Assembly: GCF_041529975.1 (NCBI RefSeq)
Contig: NZ_CP168030.1
Span: 3,348,001-3,412,000 of the forward strand
Length of the DNA: 64,000 nucleotides
From: Microbacterium maritypicum
GTDB lineage: Bacteria > Actinomycetota > Actinomycetes > Actinomycetales > Microbacteriaceae
Reading direction: 5' to 3'
Every line of letters starts with the position of its first letter. Position 1 is the stretch's first letter. The notes below the pieces were generated by a model, which saw nothing but the letters and a program-made list of their open reading frames with translations, ran no database searches and was not told the DNA's origin. Shown one piece after another: positions 35,301 to 47,711 of the stretch. A program made the position numbers and the translations under genes.

Positions 35301-35810
35301 ATGAGCGCCGAAGCCCAGCCTGAAGTCATCGTCCGCCCGGTCCGTGATGTGGATGCGGAAGCCCTCGGTCGCGTGCACGCCCAGTGCTGGCATGAGACCT
35401 ACGACCACCTGATCAGCAAGGCGGCGCTCGAAAAGGTCTCGCCCCGGCGCATGGCCGAGCTGTGGACGCACTGGGCCTCGCAGGGTCCCGAGTTCAAGAT
35501 GAACGCCGCGCTCGTCGACGGCGAGATCGTCGGATTCGTCGGCTCCGGCCCGGCCCGCGACAAGGATGCTCCGGCGTTCCGCGAGCTCTACTTCATCTAC
35601 CTGCTCGACGCGTACCACTCCACCGGCATCGGACAGAAGCTGTTCGACGCCGCGGTCGAGACCGACGAGCCGCTGTACCTGTGGGTCGCCGAGGACAACC
35701 CCCGCGCGCACCGCTTCTACACGCGCAACGGTTTCCGCCTCGACGGCGCGACGCACACCGAGCCGTTCCTCGGCGAGACGCTGACCGAAGTCCGCTTCGT
35801 CCGTCCCTGA
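35301..35810 (+). CDS. GNAT family N-acetyltransferase
   Basis: A 169-residue acetyl-CoA-dependent acetyltransferase. The conserved acetyl-CoA loop appears as DAYHSTGIGQKLFDAA, a Q/R-x-x-G-x-G/A variant, after the beta-4 strand FRELYFIYLLD. LWVAEDNPRAHRFYTRNGF is the typical final motif. The acceptor substrate is unknown. It is separated from the CoaE-like gene by 28 bases and could be cotranscribed with it. Confidence 0.9.
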   Translation: MSAEAQPEVIVRPVRDVDAEALGRVHAQCWHETYDHLISKAALEKVSPRRMAELWTHWASQGPEFKMNAALVDGEIVGFVGSGPARDKDAPAFRELYFIYLLDAYHSTGIGQKLFDAAVETDEPLYLWVAEDNPRAHRFYTRNGFRLDGATHTEPFLGETLTEVRFVRP

Positions 35811-35838
35811 CGAATCCGGGCACTGTGCACCGGAGCGG

Positions 35839-36480
35839 GTGACGGCCATGACCGCCTCCACCCTGGTCGGGCTCACCGGCGGCATCGCCGCGGGTAAGAG
35901 CACGGTCGCACGCGCACTCGCGACCCACGGCGCCCGCATCGTGGACGGCGATGCCGCCGCACGCGACATCGTCGACCCGCGGACATCCGGCGGGGCGGCG
36001 CTCCTGCCCCGCATCGCCGCGCTGCTGGGCGACGAGGTGCTCGCCCCGGATGGGGCGCTCGACCGGGCGGCCGTGGCGGCACGGGTGTTCGGCGACGACG
36101 CACTGCGTGGTCAGTACAACGCGCTGCTGCGCCCGGCGATCCTCGACGAGGTGGCCCGGCGCATCGCGGAGGCCCGGCGCGATCCCGGAGTCGTCGTGCA
36201 CGAGATCCCGCTGCTCAACCGCACCACCGCACCATTGCCCTGGACCTACGACCTGGTGGTGACGGTCGAGGCCGTGGCGTCGACACGGTTGCAGCGTCTG
36301 CAGAACGACCGAGGGCATGACGCCGCCGAAGCGGAGCGCCGTATACGCGCACAGGGCGAGGAGGCCGACCGCGTCGCGATCGCCGATGTCGTGCTGCGCA
36401 CCGACGGCACCCTCGACGAGACGCTGCGCGCGACGGCTTCGCTGTGGGCGCAGCTCAGCGCAGAGCGTCCACCGCGGTGA
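35839..36480 (+). CDS. coaE: CoaE-like P-loop kinase
   Basis: A protein of about 210 residues matching dephospho-CoA kinase, the last step of CoA synthesis. It has P-loop GLTGGIAAGKST, IVDGDAAARDIV (the DAD-like acceptor site in variant form), the RVFGDDALR helix and HEIPLLNRT in place of the usual P-L-L-F-E. The divergence at these spots suggests a paralogue rather than the housekeeping enzyme, which is usually encoded near uvrB. GTG 35839 and ATG 35848 are both possible starts. The last 26 bases overlap the convergent epimerase-like gene. Confidence 0.7.
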   Translation: MTAMTASTLVGLTGGIAAGKSTVARALATHGARIVDGDAAARDIVDPRTSGGAALLPRIAALLGDEVLAPDGALDRAAVAARVFGDDALRGQYNALLRPAILDEVARRIAEARRDPGVVVHEIPLLNRTTAPLPWTYDLVVTVEAVASTRLQRLQNDRGHDAAEAERRIRAQGEEADRVAIADVVLRTDGTLDETLRATASLWAQLSAERPPR

Positions 36481-37372
36481 CGATCTCGGCCAGCGCGCGT
36501 TCCACGTCGTCGCGCGCATAGCCGAGCAGCGCCGTCTCAGCCGGATCAGGCTCGTAGGCGATCACCGCGCCACGCCCCTGGACGATGAATCGGTCGGGCT
36601 GGAACGGATGCTCCTCGTCGCGCTCCTCGATCACGTGCGCGCTCCCTGCAGCATCCGCCAGCAGCTGGAAGTAGCCGCGGTAGGTGAGGTTGCGGTCGCC
36701 GACGAGGTAGGCGCGACCGCCCTCCCCGGCGTCGAGCGCGCCCCGCGCAGCCTGCGAGAGCGACCGCACCGACATGTAGTTCGTGCCGCCGGGAGGGGCG
36801 AACAGCTCGGGCTCGTCGAGCTCGCCGCGCGTCCACGCGATCATTCGGGCGAATCGGCGCACCCCGCGCTCGTCGGCGCCGACGATCGACGGCGGGTTCA
36901 GGGTCATCGCCGCGAAGCCGTCGTCACTCAGCGCCCGGGTGCGCTCATCCGCATCACGGCGGGCGGCGACGTACGGGATGCGCTCCGCCCACTCGGGATG
37001 CAGCTGGTGGTAGTAGCTGCCGATCTGCACGAAGCGACCGACCCCGGCAGCCTTGGCGAGCGCCGCGAACCGCGGCACCCCGACGCTCTGCGTGCGGTCC
37101 CAGAACGTGTCGTCCTCTTGATCGGCCGGCACGTGACGGATGTCGTTGCCGGCCGCGAACACGATCGCGTCGAAGCCCTCCAACATGCGCGGCGAGGACT
37201 CGGCGTCGGTGTAGTCACCTCGGAGCCGCGGCATCCCGTGGACCGCACGCGGATCACGGTCGGACGGATCGCGGCGGGCCATCACGGTGACCTCGTCCCC
37301 GTGCGCGGCGAGGTCGGCGGCGACATGGCTGCCGATCATCCCGGTCGCACCGACGACCAGCACCCGGCTCAC
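36455..37372 (-). CDS. NAD-dependent epimerase/dehydratase family protein
   Basis: A 305-residue extended SDR. The Rossmann motif VVGATGMIGSHVA is at the N-terminus, a FAAGNDIRHV strand follows, and SYYHQLHPEW and NPPSIVGADERG sit where the catalytic and substrate region is expected. The usual YxxxK is not obvious (the closest is SYYHQ), so it may be an atypical or NmrA-like member. The GTG overlaps the stop of the MaoC-type gene (GTGA), which makes it the third gene of an SDR-MaoC-epimerase operon at the edge of the HIP cluster. Its role there is not known. Confidence 0.78.
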   Translation of the reverse strand: MSRVLVVGATGMIGSHVAADLAAHGDEVTVMARRDPSDRDPRAVHGMPRLRGDYTDAESSPRMLEGFDAIVFAAGNDIRHVPADQEDDTFWDRTQSVGVPRFAALAKAAGVGRFVQIGSYYHQLHPEWAERIPYVAARRDADERTRALSDDGFAAMTLNPPSIVGADERGVRRFARMIAWTRGELDEPELFAPPGGTNYMSVRSLSQAARGALDAGEGGRAYLVGDRNLTYRGYFQLLADAAGSAHVIEERDEEHPFQPDRFIVQGRGAVIAYEPDPAETALLGYARDDVERALAEIVTAVDALR

Positions 37373-38151
37373 GCGAACACCGCCCGACCGTCGGAGATCA
37401 CGGAGACCCCGTCGCGGCGCAGCTCGAAAGCGCCGTCGGGCCAGGACTCGAGGTCGAGCGCGTCGCCCGGGATCACGGGTCCGCTGAAGCGGCCCTGGAG
37501 TGCGATCAGATCGGCCGGATGCGCGCCCTGCTCGGCGGCGAGCGCGAGCGTGGTCGCGGCGAGGGTGCACAGCCCCTGCAGGATGGGGGTCGGGTGTCCG
37601 ATCCGGGCCGACGCTTCGGGGTCGATGTGGATGTGATGGCGGTCACCGGTCAACCGGTACAGGGCCGCCTGGGTCGCGAAGGTCTGCACCACGGAGCGCC
37701 TGCCCACCGGCCGCTCGGCGGATGCCGCTTGCGCGGGCCCCCGCTCTCCGCCGAAGCCACCGAATCCGGGGGCGAACAGCGACCACGTCGCCGTGAACTC
37801 GTCGCACTCCACGATCACGTCGAAGATCGCCGCGGAGCCCTTGTCCCAGACGTCCCCCACCCGGGCCGAGAGGCGCAGTTCGCCGGTACGGGGCAGCGGA
37901 CGGTGCACCTCGAGCGTCTGCGAACCGTGCACGGCACGGTCGTCGAAGGCCCCCGCTGCGGCGAGGACGTCGGGCGCCCACTGCGCGAGCGTGAGACCGA
38001 AGGTCGGCAGCACCCGCAGCCGATCCTCGAACACGAGGTCGAGGTCGGTGGCCGCCGCACCCACGGCGAGGGCGTAGAGGATGGCATCCTTCTCGTCATA
38101 GGCGACGGTCCGCTCACCGAGATCGCGGCCCGCCCAGTCCGCCGCACTCAT
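37369..38151 (-). CDS. MaoC-type enoyl-CoA hydratase (double hotdog)
   Basis: A 260-residue two-domain hydratase of the MaoC/hydratase-2 type. The N-terminal domain has the non-catalytic hotdog. The C-terminal domain carries the active-site motif YRLTGDRHHIHIDPE with Asp170 and His175, but the usual N-P dipeptide between them is H-H. It resembles MaoC proteins of steroid side-chain and ring degradation in mycobacteria (Rv3538-like). It overlaps both neighbours by four bases in the SDR-MaoC-epimerase operon. Hydration of an unsaturated ring-derived CoA thioester is inferred. Confidence 0.83.
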   Translation of the reverse strand: MSAADWAGRDLGERTVAYDEKDAILYALAVGAAATDLDLVFEDRLRVLPTFGLTLAQWAPDVLAAAGAFDDRAVHGSQTLEVHRPLPRTGELRLSARVGDVWDKGSAAIFDVIVECDEFTATWSLFAPGFGGFGGERGPAQAASAERPVGRRSVVQTFATQAALYRLTGDRHHIHIDPEASARIGHPTPILQGLCTLAATTLALAAEQGAHPADLIALQGRFSGPVIPGDALDLESWPDGAFELRRDGVSVISDGRAVFA

Positions 38152-39050
38152 GCGCCGTATACCGGCTCGGGGTCGACACTCTCGGCGACGAGAGCGCGCA
38201 CGGCATCGCCGACCTCCGCGGCCGACCACCGCCGATCGAGCTCGCGGACCGGGCCGTGGCGCCAGCCTTCCTCCAGGCAGATGCGCCCACCCTCGACCTC
38301 GATGACGCGGCCGCTGATCGTGCAGTCCGCACTCGCGAGCCACGCGACCACGGGAGAGACGTTCGCGGGATCCATCCGGTCGAAGCCGTCTTCGGGCGCG
38401 GCCATCGCGTCGGCGAAGGGGCCCTCGGTCATCCGGGTGCGCGCAGACGGGGCGATCGCGTTGACGGCGACGCCGTAGCGTCCCAACTCGGCGGCTGCGA
38501 CCAGGGTCAGGGAGGCGATGCCGCCCTTCGCCGCGGAGTACGCCGCCTGCCCGATGCTGCCCTGGAGCCCTGCACCCGACGAGGTGTTCACCACCCGGGC
38601 CAGGGGCTGCCTGCCCTCTTTCGCCTCGGCGCGCCAGTAGGCGCTCGCGTGGCGCAGCGGGGCGAAGTGCCCCTTGAGGTGCACGCGGATGACGGCGTCC
38701 CATTCATCCTCGCCGGCGTTGACGAGCATCCGGTCGCGCACGAAACCGGCGTTGTTGACGAGGATGTCGAGGCGACCGAACGCGGAGATCGCCTGGTCGA
38801 CGAGCGCTGCGGCCTGAGCGAAATCGGCGATGTCGGCTCCGTTGGCCACGGCTTCGCCACCCGACGCGCGGATGATGTCGACGACCTCCTGCGCAGGCCC
38901 GACCGACACGCCTGCGCCGTCGAGCGTCGTGCCGAGGTCGTTGACGACGACTGCCGCGCCCTGCCGGGCGAGTTCGAGCGCATGCTCGCGCCCGAGACCA
39001 CGACCGGCGCCGGTCACGATCGCGACGCGACCTTCGAGGATTCCTGCCAT
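38148..39050 (-). CDS. SDR oxidoreductase, Rv3548c-like
   Basis: A 300-residue short-chain dehydrogenase with TGAGRGLG at 13-20, NNAG and the catalytic YSAAK. The length and the GRGLGREHALELARQGA start resemble the dehydrogenase part of MFE-2 and the mycobacterial KstR2-regulon protein Rv3548c. It would oxidise a 3-hydroxyacyl-CoA intermediate. ATG 39050 with AAAGGAGA upstream is chosen; the open frame runs on to 39152 through the operator region. It is transcribed divergently from echA20 behind two palindromic operators. Confidence 0.85.
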   Translation of the reverse strand: MAGILEGRVAIVTGAGRGLGREHALELARQGAAVVVNDLGTTLDGAGVSVGPAQEVVDIIRASGGEAVANGADIADFAQAAALVDQAISAFGRLDILVNNAGFVRDRMLVNAGEDEWDAVIRVHLKGHFAPLRHASAYWRAEAKEGRQPLARVVNTSSGAGLQGSIGQAAYSAAKGGIASLTLVAAAELGRYGVAVNAIAPSARTRMTEGPFADAMAAPEDGFDRMDPANVSPVVAWLASADCTISGRVIEVEGGRICLEEGWRHGPVRELDRRWSAAEVGDAVRALVAESVDPEPVYGA

Positions 39051-39148
39051 GGATCGACTCTCCTTTGAGACTGTCCGGCTGATGAGCCGGCACCGACTGC
39101 GCGCGACGGGAGTGCGGTCGCGGATGACGATGTGCATGATCCTACCAA

Positions 39149-39164
39149 CCAAGCAATTGCTAGG
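39149..39164. promoter_or_regulatory. CAAGC-N4-GCTAG operator, site 1
   Basis: CCAAGCAATTGCTAGG is a 16-base palindrome with one mismatched pair, in the 192-base gap between the divergent SDR and echA20 genes. The half-site CCAAGC resembles KstR2 half-sites, but the spacing between halves is four bases wider than the published mycobacterial KstR2 motif. Confidence 0.7.
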
Positions 39165-39194
39165 GCAAATGCGGTGAAGGGGTTATGAGCCAAA

Positions 39195-39210
39195 CCAAGC
39201 AAGTGCTAGG
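39195..39210. promoter_or_regulatory. CAAGC-N4-GCTAG operator, site 2
   Basis: CCAAGCAAGTGCTAGG repeats site 1 with one base change, 46 bases further on and 33 bases before the echA20 start. Two equal sites suggest control of both divergent operons. Confidence 0.7.
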
Positions 39211-39242
39211 GTGCCTTGAGCAAACGTTAGGTTAGGTGTCCG

Positions 39243-40001
39243 ATGACGATCACTTCCACCCTGCATCCTTCCGGTGTCCGCACCGTGACGATGGACTACC
39301 CGCCGGTGAACGCCCTGCCCGTCGCCGGATGGTTCGACGTCGCCGCCGCGATGCACGAGGCCACCGCCGATGCGGCGACGCGCGTCGTGATCCTCCGGGC
39401 GGAGGGCCGCGGGTTCAACGCGGGCGTCGACATCAAGGAGATGCAGCGCATCGAGGGCTTCTCCGGCATCCTCGGGGCCAACCGCGGATGCTACGAAGCA
39501 TTCAAGGCGATCTACGAATGTGCGGTCCCCGTGATCGCGGCCGTCAACGGCTTCTGCCTGGGCGGCGGGGTCGGGCTCGTCGGCAACAGCGACGTGATCG
39601 TCGCCTCCGACGACGCGACCTTCGGCGTTCCCGAGGTCGACCGCGGCGCACTCGGAGCGGCCACGCACCTCTCCCGCCTCGTCCCGCAGCACATGCTCCG
39701 TTCGATGTACTACACGAGCCGCACGGTCACGGCCCAGCGGCTCGAGGAGTTCGGCTCCGTGACCGCGGTCGTGCCGCGAGCCGAACTCGACGACGCCGCG
39801 CTCGCGATCGCGGAGGAGATCGCAGCCAAGGATCCGCGCGTCATCCGCGCAGCCAAGGAGGCGCTGAACGGCATCGACCCGATCGACGTCAACCGCAGCT
39901 ACCGGTTCGAGCAGGGCTTCACGTTCGAGCTCAACCTCGCCGGAGTCGCCGATCAGCACCGCGACGCCTTCGTCGCGACCGGCGAGAACCTGTCGACATG
40001 A
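39243..40001 (+). CDS. echA20: Crotonase-fold hydrolase, EchA20-like
   Basis: A 252-residue crotonase-superfamily protein. The oxyanion hole is in GRGFNAGVDIKEM and VNGFCLGGGVGLVGNSDV, and the acidic region is FGVPEVDRGALGAATHLSRL. It is followed, with four-base overlaps, by ipdA, ipdB and ipdC in the same order as Rv3550-Rv3553 of M. tuberculosis. In that pathway EchA20 opens steroid ring D by hydrolysing a cyclic beta-diketone. The assignment rests mainly on gene order. The start lacks a good Shine-Dalgarno; AGGTG lies four bases upstream. Confidence 0.83.
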   Translation: MTITSTLHPSGVRTVTMDYPPVNALPVAGWFDVAAAMHEATADAATRVVILRAEGRGFNAGVDIKEMQRIEGFSGILGANRGCYEAFKAIYECAVPVIAAVNGFCLGGGVGLVGNSDVIVASDDATFGVPEVDRGALGAATHLSRLVPQHMLRSMYYTSRTVTAQRLEEFGSVTAVVPRAELDDAALAIAEEIAAKDPRVIRAAKEALNGIDPIDVNRSYRFEQGFTFELNLAGVADQHRDAFVATGENLST

Positions 40002-40864
40002 CCATCGCGGCCTCCTCTCTCCCGGAGGTCGCATCGCTGATCCACGACGGCATGACGATCGGGATCGGCGGGTGGGGCTCCCGCCGCAAGCCGATGGCGC
40101 TGGTGCGCCAGATCGTGCGGTCGGGCGCCCGCGACCTGCGCATCGTCAGCTTCGGCGGCCCCGACGTCGGCATCCTGTGCGCCACCGGGCAGGCGTCCGA
40201 GGTGGTGCACGGCTTCGTGTCACTCGACAGCATCGCGATCGATCCCCACTTCGCGGCCGCCCGCCAGTCCGGCTCCGTGCACAACGTCGAATACGACGAG
40301 GGGATGCTGGTCGCCGGGCTCCGGGCCGCCGCCCGGCGCCTGCCGTTCGAGGTCACCCGGTCCGGAGCGGGCTCCGACGCCGTGACCCGCAACCCGCACA
40401 TCCGCACGATCACCTCGCCCTACGCCGACGCGGAGGTGCTGGTCGCGATGCCCGCCGTGCCCCTCGACCTCGCGCTGCTGCACCTCGACCGTGCGGATGC
40501 CGCGGGCACGGCGGTCTGCCTCGGACCCGACCTCTTCTTCGACGATCTGTTCGCGGGTGCGGCCGCCCGCACCGTCGTGAGCGTGGAAGCCGTGGTGGAC
40601 ACCGCCGACCTGCTCGCAGGTGCCGGACCCACGTCATCCGTCCTCGACCGCACGCTCACCGACCTGGTCGTGGCGTCGCCGGGCGGAGCCGGGTTCACGG
40701 CGCACCCTCCGCACGCCTCCCGCGACGAGCGGCTGCAACGGGCGTACGTCGAGGCCGCCGCGTCGCCCCACGCCTGGGCCGACTTCCGCGCCCGTTTCCT
40801 CGACGTCGACGATGACGCCTATCGCGCGGCCGTGGCCTCCTTCCACGCCGAGGCGGCATCATGA
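39998..40864 (+). CDS. ipdA: HIP-pathway ring hydrolase subunit IpdA
   Basis: A 288-residue class-I CoA-transferase-fold alpha subunit. IpdAB acts as a hydrolase that opens steroid ring C (COCHEA-CoA) and not as a CoA transferase. Family marks are GMTIGIGGWGSRRKPMALVR, SFGGPDVG, GFVSLDS and the EYDEGM segment at residues 98-103, which holds the conserved acidic residues of this subfamily. It overlaps echA20 and ipdB by four bases each. A second copy is encoded at 57887. Confidence 0.88.
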   Translation: MTIAASSLPEVASLIHDGMTIGIGGWGSRRKPMALVRQIVRSGARDLRIVSFGGPDVGILCATGQASEVVHGFVSLDSIAIDPHFAAARQSGSVHNVEYDEGMLVAGLRAAARRLPFEVTRSGAGSDAVTRNPHIRTITSPYADAEVLVAMPAVPLDLALLHLDRADAAGTAVCLGPDLFFDDLFAGAAARTVVSVEAVVDTADLLAGAGPTSSVLDRTLTDLVVASPGGAGFTAHPPHASRDERLQRAYVEAAASPHAWADFRARFLDVDDDAYRAAVASFHAEAAS

Positions 40865-41610
40865 CCGCCACCCGTGCCGAGATCGCCGTCGTCGCCTGCA
40901 GCGACCTGTTCCGCGGGGCGGGCGCGATCCTCGCGAGCACGGTGGGCGTCGTCCCGACCATCGGCGCACGGCTCGCTCGGCTGACCCACGCGCCCGAGCT
41001 CCTGCTCAGCGACGGTGAGGCGACGCTGTATGCCGACACCCCGGCCGTCGACGAGCCCTTCCGCGAGCCGGAGGCGCCGTTCCCGTACGCGCGGCTGTTC
41101 GAGCTGATCGCCCGGGGTCGTCGGCACGTGGTCATGGGAGCGGCCCAGATCGACCGGCACGGAAACCAGAACCTCTCGGCGATCGGCGACCGTGACCGAC
41201 CCACCCGGCAACTGCTCGGCGCTCGCGCGGCGGCCACCAACACCGTCAACCACGCCACCAGCTACTGGATCGCCCGCCACAGCCCGCGCGTGTTCGTGGA
41301 GCAGGTCGATGTAGTGACGGGAGTGGGACCGGATCGCGCGAGGGAGACCGGCGCGGATCGGTTCCAGGATCTGCGCCGCATCGTGACCGACCTCGCCGTG
41401 CTCGACTTCACCGGACCGGACGGTGCGGTCGCGCTCGCGAGCCTTCATCCGGGCGTGACACTCGACCGGGTCGTCGATGCCACCGACTTCCCCCTGCACA
41501 TCCCCGCCGGCGTCTCCGAGACCCGGCTTCCCACCGACGAAGAGCTCCGCCTCGTGCGCGAGCGACTGGACCCGCGCGCACTCCGCGACCGAGAGGTGAC
41601 CGCATCATGA
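40861..41610 (+). CDS. ipdB: HIP-pathway ring hydrolase subunit IpdB
   Basis: A 249-residue beta subunit of the CoA-transferase fold. It has the signatures PTIGARLARLTHAPELLLSD near residues 32-52, a VMGAAQIDRHGNQNLSAIGD motif at the expected CoA-fold site, and PRVFVEQVDVVTGVGPDRA. It would pair with the overlapping IpdA to hydrolyse ring C. It overlaps ipdC by four bases (ATGA). It is about 13 residues shorter than the second copy at 58750, mainly at the N-terminus and in the loop after residue 55. Confidence 0.88.
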   Translation: MTATRAEIAVVACSDLFRGAGAILASTVGVVPTIGARLARLTHAPELLLSDGEATLYADTPAVDEPFREPEAPFPYARLFELIARGRRHVVMGAAQIDRHGNQNLSAIGDRDRPTRQLLGARAAATNTVNHATSYWIARHSPRVFVEQVDVVTGVGPDRARETGADRFQDLRRIVTDLAVLDFTGPDGAVALASLHPGVTLDRVVDATDFPLHIPAGVSETRLPTDEELRLVRERLDPRALRDREVTAS

Positions 41611-42680
41611 CGACTCCCCCGCAACTCGCCACACCGCTCACGCGACTCACCGGCGTCGACCACCCGATCGTGCAGACCGGCATGGGGTGGGTCGCCGGAG
41701 CCCGCCTGGTCTCCGCCACTGCGGAAGCCGGCGCCCTCGGCATCCTCGCGTCGGCGACCATGACGTACGACGAGCTCGAGCGGCAGATCATCGAGGTCGC
41801 CGAGCGCACCGATCGCCCCTTCGGAGTGAACCTGCGTGCGGATGCCGGCGACGCGACCGAGCGTGTCGAGCTGTTGATCCGGCACGGGGTGAAGGTCGCG
41901 AGCTTCGCCCTCGCTCCCCGCCGCGAACTGATCGAACGCCTCAAGGACAACGGCGTGGTCGTGATCCCCTCGATCGGCGCGGTGCGTCATGCCGAGAAGG
42001 TGGCGGCGTGGGGCGCGGACGCGGTGATGGTCCAGGGCGGAGAGGGCGGCGGCCACACCGGCGCCGTACCCACCTCGATCCTGCTGCCCTCGGTGGTCGC
42101 CGCGGTCGACATCCCGGTGATCGCGGCCGGCGGTTTCCATGACGGCCGCGGCCTCGCCGCCGCACTCGCCTACGGTGCCGCGGGGGTGGGCATGGGCACC
42201 CGCTTCCTGCTCACGAGCGACAGTTCGGTGCCCGAGGCGATCAAGCAGCGTTACCTCGGCTTCGGTCTGGACGGCACCGTCGTCACGACCAAGGCCGACG
42301 GCATGCCGCACCGGCTGCTGCGCACCGAGTTCGTCGAAGGCCTCGAAGGCGGCAACGCTCTCACGCGACTCGGGCCGACGCTGCGGCGCTCCCTCGAGTT
42401 CAAGAAGATGTCGGGGCTGAGCTGGCCGCAGATGGTGAAGGATGCCGTCTCGATGAAGAAGGCGACCGGGCGCTCGTGGGCGCAGATGACCCTCGCCGCG
42501 AACACCCCGATGCTGCTCAAGGCCGGTCTCGTCGACGGGGACACCCACGCCGGGATGCTCGCGGCCGGTCAGGTGGTCGGCATGATCGACGACCTGCCCA
42601 GCTGCGAGGAGCTCGTCGACCGTGTGGTGCGGGACGCCGTCGCGCAGCTGCGCGCCGCGGCATCCTGCCTGATCGACTGA
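41607..42680 (+). CDS. ipdC: Flavin-dependent reductase/oxidase IpdC (NMO family)
   Basis: A 357-residue FMN protein of the nitronate monooxygenase family. PIVQTGMGWVAGARLVSA at the start, GADAVMVQGGEGGGHTG, IPVIAAGGFHDGRGLAAALA and GAAGVGMGTRFLLT define the FMN-binding barrel. In the HIP pathway IpdC is a flavin-dependent enzyme acting on a late ring-C/D CoA intermediate. It is the last gene of the echA20-ipdABC operon and is followed by the lower-GC IetAS segment, which faces it. Confidence 0.87.
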   Translation: MTTPPQLATPLTRLTGVDHPIVQTGMGWVAGARLVSATAEAGALGILASATMTYDELERQIIEVAERTDRPFGVNLRADAGDATERVELLIRHGVKVASFALAPRRELIERLKDNGVVVIPSIGAVRHAEKVAAWGADAVMVQGGEGGGHTGAVPTSILLPSVVAAVDIPVIAAGGFHDGRGLAAALAYGAAGVGMGTRFLLTSDSSVPEAIKQRYLGFGLDGTVVTTKADGMPHRLLRTEFVEGLEGGNALTRLGPTLRRSLEFKKMSGLSWPQMVKDAVSMKKATGRSWAQMTLAANTPMLLKAGLVDGDTHAGMLAAGQVVGMIDDLPSCEELVDRVVRDAVAQLRAAASCLID

Positions 42681-42727
42681 GTCGCCGCTTGGAGAACCAC
42701 TTCGACAGGTCCGTGTCAATACGAAAA

Positions 42728-42745
42728 GGACCTCGACCGGGGTCC
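42728..42745. terminator. Weak hairpin after ipdC
   Basis: GGACCTC (42728-42734) can pair with GGGGTCC (42739-42745), with one G-T wobble, around a four-base loop, between the convergent ends of ipdC and ietS. It is plausible as a terminator but is short and lacks a U-tract. Confidence 0.4.
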
Positions 42746-42760
42746 CCTCCGCAGGCATCA

Positions 42761-45331
42761 TTACACCTCGATGACGGTTGCGGCGACCTGCTGCGCAACG
42801 GGAGTCCACAGATCCACTTCGACTTCTGGGGACTCAATACTGACCACGAGCGAGTAGTCAACACCTAGATCACTCTGGTCCATTTTAGGACGATTCTTCC
42901 ACCAGCCGAGGACCGGATACACCGCGATCGCTTCCTTGCTTGCAAGGTCGACAGCCGAGCCCGTCCAAATGTCGGTGTGGATCGAACCGGCAGACTTCTG
43001 TTGGTCGCTGCCGAACAGCCACCCCTTCTCAGTTGCCAGCGACAACGGCTTCTGCCCGTCGTCTCGCGCTTGCGTATTGATGCGCTGGCGGAATGAAACG
43101 ACGCTCTCCTCCGGGCGCCTCATCGAGAAGCGCAGCCCGTGTGACGGATACACATACCGTCCAGCCCAGCCACGGCTCGAGGGATTGGGCTCCACAAAGT
43201 ACGACAACGTAACGCGCAGACGCACTTGAGTCTCACCGAGATCCGTGAGCTGCTCGATTGGCCATGGAAGCTCGTGCAGGTTCATCTCCCGCGCCTTGCC
43301 GCTACTTGACTGCCCCTCGCGCTCGTACGGATGAATGGCCGACTCTGCGACGAGAGTGAGCGCGTTCGACGCGCTACGCGTCGCGCGTTCGAGGCTCGGC
43401 ACACCCATTCCGTAACGTCGCAGCAGGTTGACGGCGTCCGCCTTTGTCCTTGCGTCGTCGACGCGGGATCGCATCGCATCGGTCCACTCTGCCGAATGCA
43501 CGATCAGTGCGCGCACAGTCTCCGGGCGAAGATCGGGGTAAGCGGCATAGATGTCGGCGGCGATGGCCGCAACCTGAGCAGTGGCGGCAGATGTGTCACG
43601 GGTAGTGGCGAAATAGCCCTCGCCCGGTCGCTGGAGCCTCGTGGTGAGGATCGCGAGGTTCTCCGGGCTGTCGACATCGGTGCCATCGGGAGTTCGGGCG
43701 AGGTTGCCTCCAGCGGCGACCACATCAGGCTTGAAGGGCCAACGCTTCTGATCAAAAGATACCGAGGTTCGGCTCGTCGGCGACAGCTCTCCTCGAGCAG
43801 CGATCGGCACGTAGCCGGCGAACACGCCAAGCGCATGATCCATGGCGTCGTGTTCGGCGTAGGCACCGACAGTGAGGGCGTTCCACGACTGAGCCGGGTC
43901 CTCGACCGCTTCGGCGTCGCTTCGGTCGAGGTGGTCGTCTTCCGCACGGATGTCGCGAATGTTGCCAGCAGAGACGATGAAGAGCCTCGGGCGCCGCTGC
44001 TCCTCTCGATCCAGGTAGGTGAATTGTGGCGTCGTGTCGTCGATCGCACGTCCGTAGGTCAGCGCATCGACCGTTGCCGACCAGGCCGTAGGGCGGCCCG
44101 ATTCCTGCTTTGGATGAGCGCCGGAGGCGTCCCCGATTGGCTCCCCCGCGCCGGCAGTCGCGGTCACAGCAAGCATGAATACTCGTTTGCGGTCGGCAGC
44201 GGAGATCTCCGGCTGATCCACCGCTCGTGCGGTCACCGCACCGTAAACGTCGGGCGCGTTGTCGCCGCTATCGGGCAAAAGCTTCACCGATTCGAGGCGA
44301 TGCTGCAGAGGCACGTACTGGAGATCCAAAACCGCAGCTTGCAGATCGCCGTATAGCGCCAGGCCTGCCATCTCGGTGCCGTGCGAATGCACGGCGATGT
44401 CCTTCCGCCACGCGGGGTCTGCGGCGTGCAGATCGTCTTGTGCCAGGGAGTCGTCGAGCAGTGGATGGTCTGCCTGAACGCCGCGGTCGAGGATGCACAC
44501 CACCGGCGCCCCATCCGCGGCCGCAGATGCTCGACTTTGAAGGTCTTGCACCCATTCCTTTTGCTCGAAGGCGTAGAGCTCGGGCAAGAAGCTGGAGACC
44601 TCATGCGGGCGCCGCAGCTCGGCGATGTCGTCGACCGCCCGGAACGTCGAGGCGAGTTGAGCCGCAGTTGCCTGTACGAGAATCACGGTGCGTTCACCAA
44701 AACCTAGGTAGTGATCGCTCGTCGTCAGGTCGTGCTGGCGGGCGTATGCGCCCAGCCGCTCACGCTCTTTGCCGTCCGTTCGGCGAAGCCAGGTCTCCCA
44801 CCAACAGAGCTGGTTCTCATCCGTCGGAAACTGGTCGTCAGGATCTGTCCATAGTTCGCGAATCGTGGCCCTGCGGATGGAAGCAATCCCCTCCATGAGG
44901 GTGGCGTTGCTCGGCTTGGCGCTTCCCTGAGCGACCGACTCGACATATTTCTCGAGCTTGCGAAGGAAGTACTCCTTCTTGCCTACTGGGACGAAGACGG
45001 TTGCTTCGAGCACTCGGCCCGCGGGACCGTCAACTTCGCGCACGGCGACGAGTTCGGGCTGCTCGCCCGCGGCTAAAGACTCCAGGCTCTCGATCGCGAG
45101 TTCGAGCCCGGGGAAGGACACGAACGTGATGTACGTCCCAGTGGACTGAGCTTCCTCGTCGGCCGGTGGTTCCCATGCGGTTTCGAGCTCTGATGCCAAC
45201 CGTTCACTGTGAGATTTGCGGTCGCCCGAAAACCCGGGCTTGTCGCTCCCGCCACCTTGCCCGGCGAGCGTAAAAGACTCGGTCGAGGGCGGCGTCGGCA
45301 CGACAATGTGGGGGCGGTCGCGTTCAACCAT
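42761..45331 (-). CDS. ietS: Subtilisin-like serine protease, IetS type
   Basis: An 856-residue S8-family peptidase without a signal peptide, hence cytosolic. The first 270 residues are a non-catalytic region. The triad is Asp282 (CILDRGV), His317 (HSHGTEMAG) and Ser581 (RDTSAATA), with oxyanion Asn457 (VSAGN). The serine box is DTSAATAQ and not GTSMAAP. A 250-residue C-terminal region follows. It lies two bases after the AAA+ ATPase gene, the arrangement of IetA-IetS, described as a plasmid-expulsion system in Agrobacterium and later listed among anti-phage systems. Length and order match; the trigger and protease target are unknown. Confidence 0.85.
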   Translation of the reverse strand: MVERDRPHIVVPTPPSTESFTLAGQGGGSDKPGFSGDRKSHSERLASELETAWEPPADEEAQSTGTYITFVSFPGLELAIESLESLAAGEQPELVAVREVDGPAGRVLEATVFVPVGKKEYFLRKLEKYVESVAQGSAKPSNATLMEGIASIRRATIRELWTDPDDQFPTDENQLCWWETWLRRTDGKERERLGAYARQHDLTTSDHYLGFGERTVILVQATAAQLASTFRAVDDIAELRRPHEVSSFLPELYAFEQKEWVQDLQSRASAAADGAPVVCILDRGVQADHPLLDDSLAQDDLHAADPAWRKDIAVHSHGTEMAGLALYGDLQAAVLDLQYVPLQHRLESVKLLPDSGDNAPDVYGAVTARAVDQPEISAADRKRVFMLAVTATAGAGEPIGDASGAHPKQESGRPTAWSATVDALTYGRAIDDTTPQFTYLDREEQRRPRLFIVSAGNIRDIRAEDDHLDRSDAEAVEDPAQSWNALTVGAYAEHDAMDHALGVFAGYVPIAARGELSPTSRTSVSFDQKRWPFKPDVVAAGGNLARTPDGTDVDSPENLAILTTRLQRPGEGYFATTRDTSAATAQVAAIAADIYAAYPDLRPETVRALIVHSAEWTDAMRSRVDDARTKADAVNLLRRYGMGVPSLERATRSASNALTLVAESAIHPYEREGQSSSGKAREMNLHELPWPIEQLTDLGETQVRLRVTLSYFVEPNPSSRGWAGRYVYPSHGLRFSMRRPEESVVSFRQRINTQARDDGQKPLSLATEKGWLFGSDQQKSAGSIHTDIWTGSAVDLASKEAIAVYPVLGWWKNRPKMDQSDLGVDYSLVVSIESPEVEVDLWTPVAQQVAATVIEV

Positions 45332-45333
45332 GC

Positions 45334-46335
45334 CTAAGAACGGGCCACATCAGACGAGCGGAGCGGACGGGGGCGCTCCTCTAAAGCAGTAACGAGATCG
45401 TCGGTGCGAACTCGAATGCGATTGCTGAGCACCGTTCGCTTCGCCGCGTTCTCCGCTGCGGTCGAAATCTCGGCGTGGCTCAGCCCGCGGGCAGCCGGCA
45501 CGATCCGCGGCCAGCTGAGATTACCTGTATAAAACGACGACAGCCTGTTCTTGATGACCCTTTGCACGGATGCGTCGTCAGGTAAGGAGAAGTCCATAAC
45601 TGTGTCGAAACGACGGAACAACGCGTTGTCTAGCAGAGCGGGATGATTGGTCGCCGCGATGATGATGCTCTCAGAAGTGTCTTCTTCTAGAAATTGGAGG
45701 AAGGAATTCAGCACTCGACGAATCTCTCCCACATCGTTCTGCGCGGCGCGATCACCGCCGAGCGCATCTACTTCGTCGAACAGATAAACGCCGCGGGTCT
45801 CAGACAGCGCGTCGAACACGAGCCGCAGTTTCGCCGCTGTCTCGCCCATAAACTTAGTCAGCACCGTGTCCAGCCGGATCGAGAAAAGCGGCAGCCCGAG
45901 TTCGCCCGCCACGACCCGAGCGGTCGACGTCTTGCCAGTCCCCGGAGGCCCCACAAGCAGCACTCTGCGTGCGGGCGTCAGGCCATGCTTCGCGAGCGCA
46001 TCGCGCTGCCGTTGTTCAAGGAGGACGTGCTTCAGCCGCTCTGCAAGCTTGTCAGCGAGTACGAGATCCCCGAGGCGCGCGTCGGGGTACGAAACGCTAA
46101 GGAGAGCGCCGAGCTCACCTTTGGGCTGAGCGAACGGCACGATCGATGCCACCCGAGCCTTGTTTCCGGCCCGCTCGCGCAGACCGTTGACCAGATCCCG
46201 AAGCTCCTGGGCAAACTTCGACTGCCCCGTCCGCGCGGCCTTAGCCGCGACCTGCATCGCAACGGCGTAGAACTGAGGGTCATCACCATCCGCATGGCTC
46301 TTGACCAGCGCTTTCACCTGATCGTTGGTCGCCAT
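45334..46335 (-). CDS. ietA: AAA+ ATPase, IetA type
   Basis: A 333-residue ATPase with a 115-residue helical N-terminus and a classical AAA domain. Walker A is GPPGTGKTS (129-137), Walker B is YLFDEVD (Asp187, Glu188), sensor 1 is Asn230 and the arginine finger is Arg241/Arg242 in FRRFD. The KFMGETAAKLRLVF segment matches the pore/second-region motif of the spastin-like group. ATG 46335 has a strong GAGAGGAGGT five bases upstream, so the open frame to 46434 is rejected as coding. It is the first gene of the IetAS pair and would sense the invader or activate the protease. Confidence 0.87.
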   Translation of the reverse strand: MATNDQVKALVKSHADGDDPQFYAVAMQVAAKAARTGQSKFAQELRDLVNGLRERAGNKARVASIVPFAQPKGELGALLSVSYPDARLGDLVLADKLAERLKHVLLEQRQRDALAKHGLTPARRVLLVGPPGTGKTSTARVVAGELGLPLFSIRLDTVLTKFMGETAAKLRLVFDALSETRGVYLFDEVDALGGDRAAQNDVGEIRRVLNSFLQFLEEDTSESIIIAATNHPALLDNALFRRFDTVMDFSLPDDASVQRVIKNRLSSFYTGNLSWPRIVPAARGLSHAEISTAAENAAKRTVLSNRIRVRTDDLVTALEERPRPLRSSDVARS

Positions 46336-46391
46336 CTGGGACCTCCTCTCGGTGAAAGAATTGCGCCGTCTGGATGCGTGCAGACAGAGTG

Positions 46392-46397
46392 ATTCTA
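46392..46397 (-). promoter_or_regulatory. Probable -10 box (TAGAAT) for ietAS
   Basis: TAGAAT on the minus strand lies 56 bases before the ietA ATG and gives the operon its own promoter, independent of fadA6 upstream. No good -35 hexamer is visible at the right distance. Positions 46398-46559 hold no gene. Confidence 0.5.
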
Positions 46398-46559
46398 GCC
46401 GAGCACGACCCGCATCCTGGGAGGCGCTACGCACACCCGATCCAGACGAGGCTCAAGACCCGTCGATGTGACGACTCTTCAGACCTCTCCGCGAGATGGA
46501 ACCTTTTGCGGGCTTGCGATCGAAAGCACACGCCCCGCCCCGAGCCCAGTCCGCCGTCG

Positions 46560-47711
46560 TCAGAGGCGCTCGATGATCGTGGCGTTCGCCAGACCGCCGC
46601 CCTCGCACATGACCTGCATGCCGTAGCGGCCGCCGGTGCGCTCCAGCTCGTTCAGCATCGTGGTCATCAGCCGGGTGCCGGTGGCTCCGATCGGATGCCC
46701 GAGGGCGATGCCGCCGCCGTTCACGTTGAGCTTCTCGCGCGGCACACCCGTCTCCTGCAGCCAGGCGAGCACGACCGAGGCGAAGGCCTCGTTGACCTCG
46801 AACAGGTCGATGTCGTCGAGCGTCATGCCCGAGCGCTCCATCGCGTAGGCCGTCGCGGGGATGGGCGCGGTGAGCATGAACACGGGACTGTCGCCACGCA
46901 CCGACATGTGGTGGATGCGCGCCCGCGGGGTGAGGCCGTGGTCCTTCACGGCCTGCGCGCTCGCGATCAGCACCGCGCTGGAGGCGTCGCTGATCTGCGA
47001 GGCCACGGCCGCGGTCAGTCGCCCGCCCGGAGTCAGCGTCTGCAGGCCGGCCATGCGCTCGAGCGAGGTGTCGCGGCGCACACCCTCGTCGTGGTCGAGT
47101 CCGTTCAACGGGGCGATCTCGTTCGCGAAGCGGCCCTCGTCCTGGGCGACTGCCGCACGCTGGTGGCTCTCCAGCGCGAACTGCTCCATCTCCTCGCGGG
47201 AGATGTCCCACTTCTCGGCGATCATCTCGGCGCCGACGAACTGCGAGATCTCCTGGTCGGGGTAGCGTGCCTGCCAGCCGGGCGACTCGGCGAACGGCGT
47301 CGTGAACCCGTAGGCCTCTCCGGCGACCATGGCCGACGAGATCGGCAGCTGCGACATGTTCTGCAGCCCACCCGCGATCACCAGGTCGTTCACGCCGCTC
47401 ATCACGGCCTGCGCGGCGAAGTGCACGGCCTGCTGGCTCGACCCGCACTGCCGGTCGATCGTGACACCCGGCACGTGCTCGGGGAAGCCGGCGACCAGCA
47501 CGGCCGAGCGCCCGACGTTGCCGGACTGCCCGCCGATCGTGTCGGTCGCGCCGATGATGACGTCGTCGATGGCGCCGGGATCGATGCCCGTGCGCTCGAC
47601 CAGCGCCTTGAGGCTGTGCGCCCCGAGGTCGGCCGGATGGATGCCCGAGAGCGAGCCGCCGCGCTTGCCGACCGGGGAACGGACCGCGTCGACGATGTAT
47701 GCCTCTGCCAT
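46560..47711 (-). CDS. fadA6: Thiolase FadA6-like
   Basis: A 383-residue thiolase with the nucleophile Cys89 in DRQCGSSQQ, the GGGIALGHPIGATG histidine and the C-terminal CEGGG cysteine, so all three catalytic residues are present. It is the third gene of the operon fadE30-ipdF-fadA6, the relative order of Rv3560c-Rv3559c-Rv3556c. In the HIP pathway FadA6 carries out thiolysis of ring-opened beta-keto CoA intermediates. The start has AAGGAAG at short distance. It is followed on the same strand by the IetAS segment. Confidence 0.87.
   Translation of the reverse strand: MAEAYIVDAVRSPVGKRGGSLSGIHPADLGAHSLKALVERTGIDPGAIDDVIIGATDTIGGQSGNVGRSAVLVAGFPEHVPGVTIDRQCGSSQQAVHFAAQAVMSGVNDLVIAGGLQNMSQLPISSAMVAGEAYGFTTPFAESPGWQARYPDQEISQFVGAEMIAEKWDISREEMEQFALESHQRAAVAQDEGRFANEIAPLNGLDHDEGVRRDTSLERMAGLQTLTPGGRLTAAVASQISDASSAVLIASAQAVKDHGLTPRARIHHMSVRGDSPVFMLTAPIPATAYAMERSGMTLDDIDLFEVNEAFASVVLAWLQETGVPREKLNVNGGGIALGHPIGATGTRLMTTMLNELERTGGRYGMQVMCEGGGLANATIIERL

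Follow-up and report, generated by a model that had tools for sequence, protein, structure and literature searches.

A candidate toxin-antitoxin pair of the IetAS family between convergent steroid-degradation genes in the chromosome of Microbacterium maritypicum

The stretch analysed here, referred to as the window, comprises 64,000 nucleotides of Microbacterium maritypicum (contig NZ_CP168030.1, positions 3,348,001 to 3,412,000), the genome of which is a single contig of 3.9 Mb. Within a steroid-degradation cluster, the gap between two convergent genes is occupied by a minus-strand pair, ietA and ietS, which encode an AAA+ ATPase and an S8 (subtilisin-type) serine protease, respectively (Table 1). 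The flanking genes are presumably ipdC and fadA6, as named in a first-pass annotation made from the letters alone. That annotation described the two open reading frames (ORFs) exactly with respect to the 856-residue length of the protease, the two-base spacing that separates ietA, the first gene, from ietS, and the positions of the protease triad; it was also correct that the flanks are undamaged, the convergent frames ending at 42680 (ipdC) and 46560 (fadA6). Although the ORF of ietA extends to an upstream GTG at 46434, the ATG at 46335 is the preferred start, as tblastn alignments to relatives begin at this codon and the motif GAGGAGG lies just upstream.

Table 1. Positions of the genes and other features discussed (window coordinates unless a locus is named).
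Feature	Coordinates	Strand	Basis
ietS, S8 (subtilisin-type) serine protease, 856 aa, presumed toxin/effector	42761..45331	-	Pfam, PADLOC, alignment
ietA, classic AAA+ ATPase, 333 aa, presumed antitoxin/regulator	45334..46335	-	Pfam, PADLOC, 73-sequence alignment
ipdC-type flavin oxidoreductase, left flank, intact	41607..42680	+	Pfam NMO
fadA6-type acetyl-CoA acetyltransferase, right flank, intact	46560..47711	-	NF005865, 669.6 bits, cut-off 591
Inserted segment, ~3878 bp (58 bp there in G236; 59 bp stop to stop)	42682..46559	none	
GAGGAGG, likely ribosome-binding site of ietA	46342..46348	-	purine-rich stretch at same place in relatives
TAGAAT, possible -10 element of ietAS operon, no -35 match	46392..46397	-	TAGGAT at same place in Brachybacterium L034
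Small hairpin then TTTT after ietS, possible terminator	42728..42745	-	no better than shuffles, z -0.56
TrwC relaxase / DprA-like gene near sister-group ietAS	L035 3103-6795, 10606-11634; L042 2993-6796; L122 9310-10314, 10380-13937		TrwC: Pfam in L035 and L042, inspection in L122; DprA-like: Pfam in L035, inspection in L122
Corresponding stretch in G250	L125 5555-7338	window orientation	

IetA belongs to the Pfam AAA family (2.5e-31) and its motifs are intact, comprising Walker A (GPPGTGKT, residues 129-136), the FDE sequence at 186-188 that provides D187 and E188, and the paired arginines R241 and R242. As the protein is p97-like, it is predicted probably to form a ring. IetS contains a Peptidase_S8 domain (PF00082, 6e-52), in which D282, H317, S581 and N457, the last of which we take to be the oxyanion asparagine, are invariant in all 56 aligned IetS sequences, the window copy included. 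Pfam returned nothing in residues 1-255 or in the C-terminal part (655-855), and no I9 domain before the catalytic domain. Both regions are conserved, yet are without a Pfam family or a convincing solved structure by sequence. A VIA-align comparison gave no row readable as a domain match for residues 60-255, a result that does not exclude one, while the predicted structure displays a beta-alpha-beta-beta-alpha-beta unit at 176-240, directly before the catalytic domain. A profile search of the PDB with IetS matched ordinary subtilisin-type proteases only, and a solved structure would therefore be informative; the best match to the N- and C-terminal parts (0.0066, ~40 residues of Cmr2) is not believed.

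The pair is a member of an already described family at an unusual chromosomal address. IetA matched the PADLOC model PDLC02196 over residues 2-320 (7e-74, 248 bits), and IetS matched PDLC02198 (2.3e-37, best stretch 440-851). The next non-Iet PADLOC family for IetA, TRIP13, scored 8.1e-15, so the ATPase is not the TRIP13/Pch2 component of cyclic-oligonucleotide-based anti-phage signalling systems (CBASS). With an IetA match, an IetS match retaining the triad and adjacent co-directional genes in the order ietA before ietS, the locus is an IetAS system in the PADLOC sense, and the identity proposed at first pass is well supported. In a protein search that scored the 8000 candidates sharing most words with the query, at least 5049 passed E 0.001, and the nearest named relatives among the matches listed derive from Glutamicibacter (86%) and Brachybacterium (84%). 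In a genome search, ietA lies directly upstream of ietS at 78 of the 80 homologous loci listed, while the other two contigs begin inside ietS. An apparent ietA-ietS fusion at L061 is in fact two ORFs, and an apparent overlap at L066 was likewise spurious.

Both domains are widespread; FtsH/PAN-type models also match IetA with 94-97 bits, and the mycosin of type VII secretion systems (T7SS) matches IetS with 33 bits, as might be seen for a non-defence ATPase-protease pair, serving protein quality control or of the mycosin/EccA kind, that had been mistaken for IetAS. Such a misassignment is very improbable. The best Iet models give IetA 210 (NCBIfam) and 248 (PADLOC) bits, whereas the matches to EccA (44 of 466.65 bits) and mycosin (33.2 of 278.75 bits) fall far under the NCBIfam cut-offs. 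In addition, the partner order is constant wherever both genes are present, and the sporadic spread of ietA, found at E 1e-60 in only 8 of the 295 genus genomes (own included), is unlike that of a housekeeping gene.

The site was compared in relatives through a protein search with ipdC (E 1e-90), which recovered 16 of the 295 genus genomes, own included; 15 non-window loci were used, the paralogue hits L024 and L025 being set aside. A fadA6 gene is convergent with ipdC within 1.5 kb in 13 of the 15, the exceptions being L020 (short flank) and L023 (64% identity). Among these 13 relatives the stop-to-stop gap is only 7-176 bp in nine, other DNA of 898-1148 bp fills the junction in four (L011, L015, L017 and L018), and no match to ietA or ietS lies at the junction in any. 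In the closest relative, G236 (97.8% protein identity for ipdC and 99.5% for fadA6), the gap is 59 bp and by eye resembles a terminator hairpin; its alignment to the window ends at 42681 and resumes at 46560. No ietS was found anywhere in four of these relatives (G236, G291, G199 and G138) or in the same-species genome G250, although the same query recovered the window's own genome. The insert is also of lower GC content, as first noted by inspection, at 62.5% against 69.7% for the window, and GC at third codon positions (GC3) is 0.70-0.72 compared with 0.86-0.94 in five neighbour genes. These data, together with the IetS tree described below, make horizontal insertion of ietAS between the convergent genes a well-supported reading of the sequence comparison, in keeping with the acquisition proposed at first pass; the pair is neither carried by all relatives with host-like GC nor placed in a housekeeping family.

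One junction alone cannot polarise gain versus loss, and the pair might in principle be native to this site and have been lost in relatives. This is extremely unlikely in view of the nine empty and four otherwise occupied junctions, the closest relative being among the empty ones, the lower GC and GC3 of the insert, and the placement of the window copy in the IetS tree with another family, whose copy lies at a different site. The ORF listing shows nothing integrase-like in the space from ipdC to fadA6, and comparison of the 150 and 170 bp ends for a target-site duplication or terminal inverted repeats gave a longest direct match of 8 bp and a longest inverted match of 6 bp, which, judged without shuffling, are taken as chance. 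The first-pass statement that neither integrase nor terminal repeat marks the insert is thus upheld. Inspection of the junction DNA in L011 and L015 revealed a short-chain dehydrogenase gene on the ipdC strand, indicating that the junction accepts different cargo. In L022, whose gap is 176 bp, GAAGTACG...CGTACTTC marks by eye an extended and nearly perfect inverted repeat that resembles a small mobile element of the hairpin type.

Maximum-likelihood analysis of 33 IetS proteins places the window copy as sister, with support 100/99, to that of Brachybacterium squillarum, a member of the Dermabacteraceae. Microbacterium is represented in this tree by five copies, which fall into four groups; the more distant copies of the genus in G136, G306 and G258 were left out. 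The M. barkeri protein (G038) groups with Cellulomonas (100/100) and that of M. testaceum (G020) with G197 (100/100), the order of these two groups being poorly supported (82/46), while G221 stands alone with a Propionicicella/Arachnia/Micrococcales group. The Brachybacterium pair (L034) shares 84% and 88% protein identity with the window pair. By inspection, it is also without an adjoining recombinase and, unlike the window pair, lies outside steroid genes, between serA-type and ilvC-type genes. DNA homology (78%) begins 66 bp upstream of ietA and ends at the ietS stop codon. Between the two copies the ratio of nonsynonymous to synonymous substitution rates (dN/dS) is 0.066 for ietS and 0.069 for ietA (dS 1.1-1.5), which argues that both genes are kept by purifying selection. 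The close empty site, the sister copy in another family and the 66-bp limit of upstream homology make this a clean and bounded case in which IetAS, reduced to its two genes, occupies different gaps in actinobacterial chromosomes.

The IetAS family, its mobility and two proposed roles have been described before. Homologues were first presented as a toxin-antitoxin pair acting in plasmid stability and incompatibility, according to a title by Yamamoto et al. (2009) that PMC8562856 and PMC6755753 cite, and not as the plasmid-expulsion system named at first pass. IetA-IetS of Agrobacterium Ti plasmids is likewise a paired AAA+ ATPase and S8 protease, and an Agrobacterium tumefaciens plasmid aligns to the window IetS over 99% with 39% identity; the window pair, by contrast, is chromosomal and without a replicon. 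SgiA-SgiT of Salmonella Genomic Island 1 (SGI1), likened here without alignment, is of the same pair type and gene order and resides on an integrative island, whereas the window pair is a solitary insert; in PMC5006074, SgiT is toxic in E. coli and SgiA rescues. Mycoplasma TA132/3 (PMC8562856), also likened without alignment, pairs an AAA antitoxin with an S8 toxin in one chromosomal operon, albeit in a very different host; PMC8562856 and PMC6755753 report that the mycoplasma AAA-ATPase/subtilase pair works as a toxin-antitoxin system in which losing the antitoxin alone is lethal. With respect to phage, components of its replication apparatus are named as activators of ietAS in PMC10732053 and as escape sites in PMC10286901. 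In PMC11878078, PMC9958689 and PMC12755874 the mechanism is called unknown, undescribed so far or incompletely elucidated.

It is likely, in our judgement, that the window carries a complete, selectively maintained and horizontally gained IetAS pair that most probably functions as a toxin-antitoxin or abortive-infection switch. By analogy with these homologues, IetS would be a cytosolic subtilisin with activity harmful to the cell, and IetA, encoded first in the operon, would restrain it, as has been shown for homologues. We infer that an invader, such as the replication apparatus of a phage or a plasmid that arrives or is lost, could upset IetA, and that the freed IetS would then cut cell proteins, leading to growth stop or death. 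The structural model suggests that the unit at IetS 176-240 could inhibit the protease in the manner of a propeptide and could be the part acted on by IetA.

Several observations weigh against this interpretation. The Foldseek rows for the IetS model begin with a pro-form subtilase, paired only at a root mean square deviation above 20 A. In PMC5006074, SgiAT expressed from its own promoter gave no post-segregational killing, and SGI1-plasmid incompatibility was apparently independent of SgiAT. At L122 (7710-8709) in G221, ietA is apparently frame-broken near residue 240 beside an open ietS, which a strict toxin-antitoxin rule forbids, although a sequencing error is possible. Finally, the NCBIfam models 'IteA' (NF042959, 209.9 of 510 bits) and 'IteS' (NF042956, 59.8 of 900 bits) both scored below their equivalog cut-offs. 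The pair is therefore a member of the broad IetAS family, related to the anti-phage reference pair and not its demonstrated equivalog. The anti-phage role mentioned at first pass is a label of the family in PADLOC, the models of which match strongly, and in NCBIfam, and would be a presumed role for the window copy.

The pair may instead be mainly an addiction or stability module left by, or now stabilising, mobile DNA, such as a vanished plasmid or integrative and conjugative element or the steroid segment, with no present anti-phage role. We regard this as unlikely. In the papers cited above, homologues serve to stabilise plasmids or islands, and ietS homologues are present in 2 of 50,697 phage records as against 481 of 72,556 plasmid records, of which 335 are predicted to be conjugative. 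By Pfam, a TrwC relaxase lies just upstream of ietA in L035 and L042; in L122 (G221), inspection found a relaxase-like ORF near ietAS. The TrwC and DprA-like genes beside these sister-group pairs (Table 1) suggest a shared conjugative element. The steroid segment is, moreover, largely missing in the same-species genome G250. On the other side, neither a terminal repeat nor a recombinase is found at the window junction, and the absence of ietAS at this site in all 13 relatives shows that the steroid segment does not carry the pair as a fixed component. Whichever role applies, the locus offers a natural test bed for phage defence versus plasmid exclusion versus neighbourhood retention.

The steroid segment is itself accessory, given that ipdC occurs in only 16 of the 295 genus genomes. 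G250, which shares 96-98% DNA identity with the window in common parts, is syntenic up to window position 35810, but the ipd genes are missing from it, as is most of the segment (window 35811-46559 and 47722 to about 61960). Past the end of synteny come 66 bp that by eye include a hairpin, then a thiolase sharing 84% identity with fadA6, and thereafter mostly other genes, so catabolic blocks vary within the species. In G250 and the window alike, a border coincides with the 3' end of the thiolase gene, which looks like a point where catabolic blocks are exchanged. The first-pass description of an insertion into a steroid locus applies in that the pair lies between steroid genes, which are themselves part of a variable stretch of DNA. 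A more specific proposal is that ietAS is an addiction module holding the accessory segment, such that segment loss would remove IetA and leave residual IetS to kill or stunt the cell. The block variability permits this idea without supporting it, and we consider it very unlikely; if true, a defence or plasmid-stability module would have been recruited to retain a chromosomal catabolic block.

The operon's own -10 box, reported at first pass, is retained as a possible element, TAGAAT, with its Brachybacterium counterpart, although a promoter scan found no sigma-70 pairs for ietAS (0.5 expected). A terminator scan reported none after ietS and did not list the hairpin in Table 1. Elsewhere in the genus, two integrase-family genes flank the M. 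barkeri copy, and the stretch around the M. testaceum copy includes a KAP NTPase. The neighbourhoods of 15 loci are given as description only, without a matched background set: Pfam identified four TrwC, three Mutator transposases and two phage integrases among 101 neighbour ORFs, and PADLOC at 1e-20 matched 19 models, one ORF each and several probably the same ORF, including type I restriction, DarG, SoFic, PifA, AbiTii and ShosA.

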